A stretch of 64,000 bases of DNA, taken from NCBI RefSeq assembly GCF_008761635.1, contig NZ_CP044344.1:1178001-1242000 (forward strand). The letters run 5' to 3'. Under the pieces are notes generated by a model, which did no database searches, was not told the origin of the DNA, and saw only the letters and a program-made list of their open reading frames with translations. Numbering within the stretch: position 1 is the first letter of the stretch; each line of letters opens with the position of its first letter. Shown in pieces: positions 41,418 through 53,258 of this stretch. Both the position numbers and the translations under genes were made by a program. Source of the DNA: Nocardioides cynanchi (GTDB taxonomy: Bacteria > Actinomycetota > Actinomycetes > Propionibacteriales > Nocardioidaceae).

Positions 41418-41746
41418 CCGCGACGACGGCTGGCCGTGGCCGCGCCGCGGCTCCCGCCGAGGACGCTGCCGAAGACGAACGAGGCGCCGAGGACGAAGCC
41501 GGTGTCGTACCAGCCGCCGTTGTTGTGCACCTCGTAGATGCCCACGCTGCTGTTGAACCACGAGATGATCAGGCTGACCGGCAGGATGAAGCCGTGCCAC
41601 AGGCCGGGCCAGAAGCCCGCCAGGTCCTGCCCCGTGCCGGCCACGTCGTTGCTGCCGGCACACCCCGTGAGCACCACCAGCAGGGCCACGGTCAGGGCGG
41701 CCACGGCCGGTCGGCGGAGCGAGCGCCAGGGTTTCGGTTCGGTCAT
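41414..41746 (-). CDS. Conserved small lipoprotein with membrane segments
   Basis: The 110-residue protein has a lipobox (VVLTGC), then FWPGLWHGFILPVSLIISWF, the well-conserved SVGIYEVHNNGGWYDTGFVLG and a second hydrophobic stretch. Similar small proteins recur in actinobacteria and some Firmicutes without known function. The stop overlaps that of the convergent gene at CTAG. Confidence 0.75.
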   Translation of the reverse strand: MTEPKPWRSLRRPAVAALTVALLVVLTGCAGSNDVAGTGQDLAGFWPGLWHGFILPVSLIISWFNSSVGIYEVHNNGGWYDTGFVLGASFVFGSVLGGSRGAATASRRRG

Positions 41747-50970: not shown

Positions 50971-52302
50971 ATGACCGACCGCTACCAGGACTTCGTGTCC
51001 TCCCCCGTCGGCAGGCTGATGGTGAAGAACCTCGGTCTGCCCAACCCGGTCGAGCTCGACCGGTACGCCGCGGGGTCGCCGCTGGTCGACGGCACCGTTG
51101 TCGTCGGAGGCACGGGTCGGCTGGTGGAGTCACTGCCGGGGCTGCTCGACACCCGGGGCATCACCTCGGTGGCGGTCACCGATGGGGAGGCCCGCTACAA
51201 GGGTCTGGTCTTCGACGCCACCGGACTGACCGACCCGGGCGCCCTGGTGGCGCTCCGGGACTTCTTCGCGCCGCTGATGCGCAACGTGCAGACCTGCGCT
51301 CGCCTGGTCGTGATCGGCACCCCGCCGGAGCAGCTGAAGGGCGAGGAGCGGATCGCGCAGCGCGCCCTCGAGGGCTTCACCCGGAGCCTGGCCAAGGAGG
51401 TCGGCCGTGGCGGCACGGCCCAGCTGGTCTACGTCGCCGACGGCGCGGAGGGTGGGGTCGCCTCCACGCTCGGCTTCCTGCTCTCGCCGAAGTCGGCCTA
51501 CGTCTCGGGCCAGGTGATCCGGATCGGCAACACTGCCACCGAGCCCGCCGAGGAGCCCGACTGGCAGCGCCCGCTGGCCGGCAAGGTCGCGCTGGTGACC
51601 GGCGCCGCCCGCGGCATCGGCGAGCAGATCGCCCGCGTGCTGGCGCGCGACGGCGCCACGGTCGTCGGCGTCGACGTACCCCAGGCGGCCAGCGACCTGA
51701 TCACCCTGACCAAGGAGCTGGACGGCGACTACCTGACCCTCGACATCACCGCCAAGGACGCCCCGAAGCGGATCGCGCAGCACCTGTCCACCGCGCACGG
51801 CGGCGTCGACGTCGTGGTGCACAACGCCGGGATCACCCGCGACAAGCGGCTCGCCAACCTCGACGAGGCCCGCTGGAGCTCGGTGATCGACGTCAACCTC
51901 GTGGCACCCGAGCGGATCACCGCCGAGCTCCTCGCCCAGGGCCTGGTCCACGACAACGGACGGATCATCGGGGTCGCGTCGATCGCCGGGATCGCGGGCA
52001 ACCTGGGCCAGACCAACTACGCCACCTCCAAGGCCGGGGTGATCGGCCTGGTGGACTCCCTGGCCGGCGAGCTCACGCACGGGATCACCGTGAACGCGGT
52101 GGCCCCCGGTTTCATCGAGACCAAGATGACCGCGGCGGTGCCGTTCGCCACCCGCGAGGTCGGACGTCGGCTCAACTCGCTGAGCCAGGGCGGCCAGCCG
52201 GTCGACGTCGCCGAGGCGATCGCGTGGTACGCCGACCCGGCCTCCACCGCGGTCAACGGCAACGTGGTGCGGGTCTGCGGCCAGATGATGCTGGGCGCCT
52301 GA
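50971..52302 (+). CDS. fabG: High-molecular-weight 3-oxoacyl-ACP reductase (FabG4 type)
   Basis: A 443-residue protein. An N-terminal flavodoxin-like domain (1-200) precedes a complete short-chain reductase domain with G211-A-A-R-G-I-G217, NAG and the catalytic Y350-A-T-S-K354. This is the architecture of mycobacterial FabG4, which reduces 3-ketoacyl-CoA or -ACP using NADH. The ATG at 50971 follows AGGAG. It overlaps htdX-like by TGATG. Confidence 0.93.
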   Translation: MTDRYQDFVSSPVGRLMVKNLGLPNPVELDRYAAGSPLVDGTVVVGGTGRLVESLPGLLDTRGITSVAVTDGEARYKGLVFDATGLTDPGALVALRDFFAPLMRNVQTCARLVVIGTPPEQLKGEERIAQRALEGFTRSLAKEVGRGGTAQLVYVADGAEGGVASTLGFLLSPKSAYVSGQVIRIGNTATEPAEEPDWQRPLAGKVALVTGAARGIGEQIARVLARDGATVVGVDVPQAASDLITLTKELDGDYLTLDITAKDAPKRIAQHLSTAHGGVDVVVHNAGITRDKRLANLDEARWSSVIDVNLVAPERITAELLAQGLVHDNGRIIGVASIAGIAGNLGQTNYATSKAGVIGLVDSLAGELTHGITVNAVAPGFIETKMTAAVPFATREVGRRLNSLSQGGQPVDVAEAIAWYADPASTAVNGNVVRVCGQMMLGA

Positions 52303-53258
52303 TGGTCTCGACAGGCTCGACCAACGAGGGGACCGGCTCGACCAACGAGGGGACCGGCTCGGCCAACGAAGCGACCGGCTCGACCACCGAGGTCCGGATC
52401 GTCCACGGCGAGCCCGGCGGCGTCACGACCCTGCTCCGGGCCGCCCTGCCGTCGATCCCGCTGGTCAACCAGCTGCCCGGGGTCCGCAGGTCCGGCGGCT
52501 TCGAGGGGCTGGCTTTCGCGCGGCCGGCGGTGACGATCGAGCGGGCGCCGGTCTCGGCGTACGCACAGGTCTGCGGCTTCCCGGTCAAGGACACGGTGCC
52601 CCTGACCTACCCCCACGTGCTGGCGTTCCCGCTGCACCTGGCGATCCTGAGCGACCCGAGCTTCCCCTTCCCGGCCGTCGGTGCCGTGCACGTCGCCAAC
52701 GTCATCACCGCACACCGGCCGGTCGCGATCGGCGAGACGGTCACGGTGACCGTGCGGGCCGACGAGGTGCGACCGCATCCCAAGGGCCGCACCGTCGACG
52801 TGGTCGCGCGCATCGACGCCGGGGGCGAGGTGGTCTGGGAGAGCACGTCGACCTACCTCCGCCGCGGCCGCGGGGACTCCGAGGCGCACGTGCCGGACGG
52901 CCCGACGGACGTACCGACCGGCCGGGTCACCTGGCCGCTCCCGGCCGACCTCGGTCGCCGCTACGCCGGGGTGTCGGGAGACCACAACCCGATCCATCTC
53001 TACCCGTTGACCGCCAAGGCGCTGGGCTTCCCGCGCCAGATCGCGCACGGCATGTGGAGCCTGGCCCGCTGCGTCGCGGCCGTGGAGAACCGGCTGCCCG
53101 ACGCGGTGACCGTCGAGGCCGCGTTCAAGAAGCCGATCCTGCTGCCCGGCTCGGTGGGGTTCGGGGTGGAGCCCGGGTCCGACGGCGGCCTCGCCTTCGC
53201 GCTGACCTCACCGAAGGACGGCGCCCCGCACCTCGTCGGCCGCACCCGCTCCGCCTGA
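52302..53258 (+). CDS. MaoC family (R)-specific enoyl-CoA hydratase (HtdX-like)
   Basis: This 318-residue double hot-dog protein has an N-terminal hot-dog domain and a C-terminal hydratase-2 motif, GVSGD227-H-N-P-I-H232. It would form (R)-3-hydroxyacyl-CoA for reduction or oxidation by the FabG partner. The first 30 residues are a degenerate seven-residue repeat (GSTNEGT) encoded by a 21-bp tandem repeat right after the start, unlike normal HtdX N-termini. The start is fixed by TGATG coupling. Confidence 0.88.
   Translation: MVSTGSTNEGTGSTNEGTGSANEATGSTTEVRIVHGEPGGVTTLLRAALPSIPLVNQLPGVRRSGGFEGLAFARPAVTIERAPVSAYAQVCGFPVKDTVPLTYPHVLAFPLHLAILSDPSFPFPAVGAVHVANVITAHRPVAIGETVTVTVRADEVRPHPKGRTVDVVARIDAGGEVVWESTSTYLRRGRGDSEAHVPDGPTDVPTGRVTWPLPADLGRRYAGVSGDHNPIHLYPLTAKALGFPRQIAHGMWSLARCVAAVENRLPDAVTVEAAFKKPILLPGSVGFGVEPGSDGGLAFALTSPKDGAPHLVGRTRSA
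52314..52392 (+). repeat. 21-bp tandem repeat (3.75 copies) in the 5' end of the MaoC gene
   Basis: The unit GGCTCGACCAACGAGGGGAC-C occurs twice exactly (52314-52334 and 52335-52355), then once with three changes (52356-52376), then as a partial fourth (52377-52392). The preceding GGTCTCGACAGGCTCGACCA looks like the dispersed high-GC repeat often seen between actinobacterial genes. The repeat length is a multiple of three, so the frame is kept. Confidence 0.8.

Follow-up and report, generated by a model that had tools for sequence, protein, structure and literature searches.

A short dispersed repeat that enters Nocardioides coding genes probably encodes the N-terminal residues of HtdX

The window examined in this study, a 64-kb stretch of the Nocardioides cynanchi genome, contains a gene for an HtdX-like dehydratase (183-bit match of its product to Mycobacterium tuberculosis HtdX, 4oob/3wew) directly behind fabG (Table 1). 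The start codon of htdX is followed by GTCTCGACA and then by four 21-bp units, which together translate as VST-GSTNEGT-GSTNEGT-GSANEAT-GSTTE. The protein begins with MVSTGSTNEGTGSTNEGTGSANEATGSTTEVRIVHG, and VSTGSTNEGTGSTNEGTGSANEATGSTTEVR is an example of a repeat-encoded peptide of the predicted HtdX. TRF reported 4.0 copies of the 21-bp unit with 88% matches, the top score among 14 rows for the window; relative to copy 1, 20 of 21 bases agree in copy 2, 17 of 21 in copy 3 and 15 of 21 in the incomplete copy 4, and the array including its head is 89 bp long. A preliminary description of this DNA had claimed these units right behind the start codon, coupling to fabG through TGATG and a frame that stayed open despite the repeat. 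All of this is borne out by the sequence, with the head VST preceding the units. A further tandem repeat lies at window positions 41454-41519 (30-bp unit, 2.2 copies, 75% matches), with a unit unlike the VSTGST family.

Table 1. Features at the fabG-htdX junction of the window and, in the last three lines, XerD-like carriers at other loci
Feature	Positions	Strand	Basis
Upstream fabG (3-oxoacyl-ACP reductase), part of gene	51100..52302	+	NCBIfam PRK08261.1, 593.9 bits (cut-off 410)
TGATG, overlap of fabG stop (TGA, 52300-52302) and htdX start (ATG, 52302-52304), one shared base; element behind it	52300..52304	+	Sequence
htdX-like gene, MaoC/double hotdog (3R)-hydroxyacyl dehydratase, 318 aa	52302..53258	+	Pfam MaoC, 1.3e-15
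Dispersed-repeat core GGTCTCGACAGGCTCGACCA, reads VSTGST; first G is the G of the ATG	52304..52323	+	Genome copies
21-bp tandem array, four units, GSTNEGT / GSTNEGT / GSANEAT / GSTTE	52310..52392	+	TRF score 131
HtdX inter-domain linker, without element in the window copy	52857..52919	+	Element here in G075 (sense) and G031 (antisense)
XerD-like carrier	L045:1214-2188	-	
XerD-like carrier	L375:523-1497	+	
XerD-like carrier	L421:907-1893	-	

The htdX frame holds no ATG, GTG or TTG after codon 1 until codon 77, and the invariant columns in an alignment of 40 HtdX orthologues begin at A47. With no alternative start before codon 77 and invariant residues from A47, the repeat should be translated if HtdX is made, and we infer that, on this proviso, it is part of the protein. 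AlphaFold gave the product a mean pLDDT of 84.1, with values below 50 at residues 1-28, so that the N-terminal segment is predicted to be disordered, and with a dip to 67 at residues 191-200. The linker between the hotdog domains is a second point of entry, since it contains the element in sense, reading VSTGST, in G075 and in antisense, reading VVEPVETP, in the HtdX of G031; the pLDDT values of the two segments suggest flexibility at either place of entry.

The head of the array belongs to a dispersed family whose core, GTCTCGACAGGCTCGACC / GTCTCGACARGCTCGACC, spans about 18 bases and has the ends TGGTC...GACCA. The N. cynanchi genome (G000; 3,998,545 bp) contains 18 copies of the 20-mer GGTCTCGACAGGCTCGACCA at up to 2 mismatches, 8 at up to 1 and 5 exact, and the same 20-mer read backwards has no match in it; within the window the element is single-copy at up to 3 mismatches, at htdX. 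This genome-wide count upheld the earlier suggestion that the flank of the array is a dispersed repeat; the array is, however, no isolated accident in htdX, as in-frame copies occur in many genes of the genome and the genus and, in other lineages, at this very position of HtdX. At up to 1 mismatch, the 20-mer was found in 23 of 37 genomes of the genus (N. cynanchi included; 0-95 copies each) and in none of 21 other genomes of the order, with no match to the reversed control in any of these 58 genomes. In a class-wide sample of 296 genomes the 20-mer occurred in 16: the genus contributed 8 of its 15 sampled genomes, the rest of the family 1 of 10 (with 17 copies) and other groups 7, five of these with a single match each; the control matched once each in three genomes of this sample. 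Among the 80 named relatives identified through HtdX, almost every one is called Nocardioides. The 15-mer GGCTCGACCAACGAG occurs at 250 places at up to 2 mismatches versus 46 for its control. One weak match was to a plasmid (72% identity, Arthrobacter), a phage search for the element gave no match, and comparison of the htdX region with known RNAs in Rfam gave none at gathering score. Upstream of nuoD, L549, L559 and L561 have variants such as GTTTCGACAAGCTCAACC at the same start codon, which implies that the family is broader than the counted 20-mer.

An intergenic related form of the type GTGGTCTCGACTTCGCTCGACCACCGAGG occurs in arrays that open with one full element and continue with reiterations of its 3' half (e.g., L193 and L213), and the array in the window has the same architecture. 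Only multiple-of-three spacings, mostly 21 and 18, were found in 33 of 38 arrays called coding, a test with some circularity, since matching frames in the flanks were the ground on which part of the arrays had been classed as coding; 15 of 59 noncoding arrays had only such spacings, the commonest in these being 19 and 20. Start-type arrays with an in-frame start codon had only multiples of three in 10 of 11 cases, although their choice shares the same bias. Since coding arrays mostly keep to multiples of three, the 21-bp array of the window is best read, from these sequence comparisons, as a frame-compatible version of arrays also found between genes. Arrays of the exact 20-mer occur in high-copy genomes, with a 56-bp period at G028:C26:24639-24994 (7 copies) and a 32-bp period at G010:C23:33346-33557 (7 copies). 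That the array arose wholly by local slippage of a Ser/Thr/Gly low-complexity start, resembling the repeat through GC-rich codons alone, is very improbable: its tandem unit, its multiple-of-three period and its products, which are low-complexity linkers, would suit such an origin, but exact copies of the 20-mer turn up both in unrelated genes and in intergenic DNA, and the reversed 20-mer and the reversed ATG pattern were absent from sets of 58 and 215 genomes, respectively. Slippage is likely for the later 21-bp copies of the array and unlikely for its head.

The element is dispersed over genes of unrelated function. In the N. cynanchi genome, hosts named by Pfam or NCBIfam, with copies at up to 2 mismatches, include LpdA (dihydrolipoyl dehydrogenase), GlgB, maltokinase, a FadB/FadJ-like protein, a SIS-domain protein and a KAL-type 4HBT protein that has the same TGATGG start as HtdX. 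A gene of the MM-CoA-mutase family has two near copies (L013/L014, at 1,647,556 and 1,648,861; 2 mismatches each), which read GSTSSTSGG near the N-terminus and VSTGSTGG internally. The array in a YoaA/DinG-like helicase (L016, at about 2,412,300) is an 18-bp Gly/Ser/Thr expansion that reads VSTGSTGGGGSTGGSGSTGGGGSTGGS and lies outside the Pfam domains found. The LpdA copy is located in a short turn, and 28 of 30 aligned loci (that of N. cynanchi included among the 30) are without the element; in the closest LpdA, that of G068 (87% identity), this turn is occupied by a copy of different arrangement.

The frame in which the element is read inside genes was examined with a codon-usage caller trained on long ORFs, which called 2522 of 2795 training windows correctly and 3 wrongly, left 270 uncalled, and called none of 527 shuffled windows coding. 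It was applied to 201 distinct sites from 23 genomes, a subset of all copies selected independently of the start codon. Both flanks were noncoding at 57 of these sites and shared one coding frame at 35, the internal sites. Internal sites are strongly biased in frame: 27 read VSTGST, 5 read the antisense VEPVET, three other frames had 1 each and the sixth had 0. The 27 of 35 compare with an expected 1/6 (binomial p 6e-15), a figure to be read with the caveats that L402, with a stop immediately before it, actually lies between genes and that XerD-like orthologues, in which the element occupies a common site, account for three of the 27. As the 20-mer is stop-free in all six frames, the bias towards VSTGST points to selection on the product. 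In the XerD-like tyrosine recombinases, which come from three species (Table 1), VSTGST lies in the same loop, ahead of ALFLNARGGRLSRQSAW, and these copies represent either one old insertion or recurrent entry. Five genomes carry a copy (MDGGLDKLDHRVG...) in the GLDKLDHR/GLDELDHR frame within near-identical surroundings (L427, L447, L449, L450 and L451); it is apparently an inherited copy in a rare frame that was kept.

Copies are also enriched directly behind start codons. The combination of ATG and element, ATGGTCTCGACNNGCTCGACC, was found at 117 places in 42 of 215 Nocardioides genomes, and the reversed pattern was absent from all 215. Merging identical neighbourhoods and leaving out a few places gave 107 distinct sites, of which 41 were noncoding on both sides and 40 had downstream coding sequence in the frame of the ATG. 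Of these 40, 34 were called gene starts with the element directly behind the ATG, and six were called internal, although in two of the six, L269 and L291, an in-frame stop immediately precedes the ATG, and these two are probably starts as well. Eighteen of the 34 gene starts overlap an upstream stop codon by one base (17 TGATG, 1 TAATG). The pattern TGATGN{0,24}GTCTCGAC... had zero spacing in 26 of the 77 places listed, and the remaining 51 were spread over 24 other spacings with at most 6 each. Chance would give closer to 4 than to 2 of 77 at zero spacing, by a hand estimate from the base composition before intergenic copies, and the Poisson tail was taken at an expectation of 4.3.

Start-site hosts named by profile are biotin carboxylase, GltX (class I tRNA synthetase family), HisG, an HpcH/HpaI-type lyase, a transketolase-type subunit, a CoA transferase, acetaldehyde dehydrogenase, an alpha-amylase-family protein and NuoD. 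Judged from sequence appearance, several genomes have the element in biotin carboxylase, HisG and GltX, and Pfam confirmed one member of each. A variant of the element lies directly behind the nuoD ATG in 4 of the best 30 loci (query locus counted); between the ATG and a conserved TTC-TAC, the sequence of L559 exceeds that of L552 by 18 bp. A NuoD tree of 32 loci, consisting of the best 30 and two further known carriers, needs 5 changes in its best form, and its strongly supported branches force 2. A filled and an empty site can be compared in a gene that is without a Pfam or NCBIfam match and for which the best 30 loci were inspected: G208 reads ..GGCTGA^TGGTCTCGACAAGCTCGACCAACGAGG^GC.. and G075 reads ..GGGTGA^GC... 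In G208 the element follows the stop as TGA^TGGTCTCGAC..., and the new ATG takes its A from the stop and its TG from the element. A -4 NTGA overlap was seen by eye in 12 of 27 repeat-free loci of this gene; in G084 the element stands one codon behind a kept GTGA, and the copy in G004 is degenerate. The concentration at zero spacing and the hits on the same genes in several genomes (HtdX and NuoD, with biotin carboxylase, HisG and GltX by sequence look) could mean that the element is kept for a function at gene starts, as an initiation or coupling sequence or as a useful flexible tail. This is unlikely, however, as 77 of 81 HtdX sequences do without the element, it also occurs in loops, at C-termini and between genes, and tolerance at codon 2 would explain the enrichment without any benefit.

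Recurrence was evaluated in 81 HtdX sequences (80 named loci and the window), and a pattern check of all 110 HtdX loci identified as carriers the window locus, L047 with its duplicate L129, L062 and L075. Four of the 81 have an N-terminal copy; those starting MVST- are the window (4 units), RYN_190 (2), RYN_216 (1) and N. agariphilus (degenerate). The HtdX core of the window has at best 69% identity to any of the 80 loci. In a tree of the core domain each HtdX carrier has a repeat-free sister, well-supported branches force 4 changes, and both a single carrier clade (AU p 5.3e-8) and a grouping of the window with RYN_190 alone (p 1.0e-4) were rejected. HtdX thus appears, from the sequence-based tree, to have been hit more than once, with at least 4 changes. 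The preliminary description had weighed entry of the repeat behind the start codon against an ancient part of the protein shared by orthologues. The repeat does occur in other HtdX proteins, but the carriers are only 4 of 81 with the window included, differ in unit number and do not make up one clade, and such a pattern is not that of an ancient part of the protein. An N-terminal segment inherited from a subclade ancestor, with many later losses, is accordingly quite improbable: all four carriers do fall inside one supported clade of 23 rows (96/84), three of them start MVSTGSTNEG, and the window and RYN_190 are identical across 31 nt, TGATGGTCTCGACAGGCTCGACCAACGAGGG, but the tree stands against it and the same sequence is present in unrelated genes. 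Even so, inheritance and repeated loss could account for some of the copies at shared sites, as in NuoD with only 2 forced changes, in the four HtdX carriers of the 23-row clade and in the XerD-like proteins, where three species have the copy at one site.

Movement as a REP-type element by a RAYT (Y1) transposase would suit its short, dispersed form, its arrays between genes and its TGGTC/GACCA ends. RAYT (PF01797, Y1_Tnp) was found in 0 of 98 Nocardioides genomes versus 5 of 14 control genomes; mobilisation by a RAYT was rejected on this search and is highly improbable given also the weak hairpin. No stable hairpin was found in the core (-2.6 kcal/mol, z -0.77; array z -0.10), and no target-site duplication was apparent by eye at the sites compared, which are diverged. 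Rickettsia palindromic elements (RPEs) are strongly palindromic, and REP/REPIN sequences are short, abundant and often clustered between genes. The Nocardioides element resembles the latter in being short, abundant and often found in intergenic clusters and differs from the REP/RAYT system in the lack of a RAYT in the 98 genomes, in its poor hairpin and in its common in-frame coding copies. It shares tandem units in multiples of three and variable copy number with protein-coding minisatellites, but its array is seeded by a dispersed head, GGTCTCGAC, that is present in unrelated genes.

RPEs are dispersed repeats of about 150 bp that lie in frame inside unrelated protein genes and add a peptide to the product (review PMC10969869). 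The element shares with them in-frame copies in unrelated genes (27 of 35 internal sites in one frame, with named hosts), but its core of 18-21 bp barely folds, and it also differs in its 18/21-bp tandem arrays, its high-GC host and its marked preference for start codons. The mycobacterial interspersed repetitive unit (MIRU), likewise an actinobacterial repeat, appears to insert at start codons with translational coupling kept and carries its own ORF, which is coupled to the gene with -4 spacing (PMC12548453, citing Supply 1997 for the insertion). The location at start codons and coupling junctions is found here too (18 of 34 overlaps; 26 of 77 listed places at zero spacing), but the Nocardioides element has no ORF of its own, is fused in frame behind one ATG, often in a -1 TGATG, and also enters gene interiors; it is set apart from MIRU by description. 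Because the size and hairpin of RPEs, the separate ORF of MIRU and the transposase of the REP/RAYT system do not apply to it, the family is assigned to none of these systems. By analogy, it would work like RPEs as in-frame selfish DNA and like MIRUs at start/stop junctions. The literature matches listed on RPEs, MIRUs and Nocardioides repeats, which may omit subscription or unlisted papers, contain no description of the family.

Taken together, the N-terminal 30 residues of HtdX are probably (probability about 0.83) translated from one copy of a short dispersed repeat, which time and again enters coding genes of Nocardioides. The HtdX repeat would consist of the element head and, after it, 21-bp reiterations of the 3' half of the element. 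Where the element enters between a stop and a start codon, it may preserve or create a TGATG overlap, with the A supplied by the stop and the TG by the element, so that ribosomes would still arrive at the gene through reinitiation. An 18-bp core would add six small hydrophilic residues without a frameshift, copies in other frames or in folded parts would mostly be purged by purifying selection, and slippage or unequal recombination may then alter the unit number, 18 or 21 bp at a time. The HtdX extension is most likely neutral, and we infer that repeat tails are neutral or nearly neutral and filtered by purifying selection. A more specific version of this reading, that the element is a mobile repeat adapted to coding sequence, is possible but tentative: its ends would fit start/stop junctions, the TGGTC end making or keeping an overlapping start codon behind TGA or NTG, its body would read VSTGST or VSTSST in frame, and it would spread through operons by a non-RAYT route. 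If true, such a repeat would keep adding N-terminal tails to housekeeping enzymes and would rank with the smallest mobile DNAs known to invade proteins.

For the genus, with start-codon copies in 42 of 215 genomes, the family amounts to a replicated natural experiment in how short dispersed DNA becomes protein sequence, where one peptide enters many genes, mainly in one frame and in some genes repeatedly, at starts, loops and tails. The gain of disordered tails, targeting close to gene starts and repeat movement without detectable RAYTs could all be tested with this family. A VSTGST or VEPVET stretch in a Nocardioides protein can stem from repeat DNA and need not be conserved sequence.
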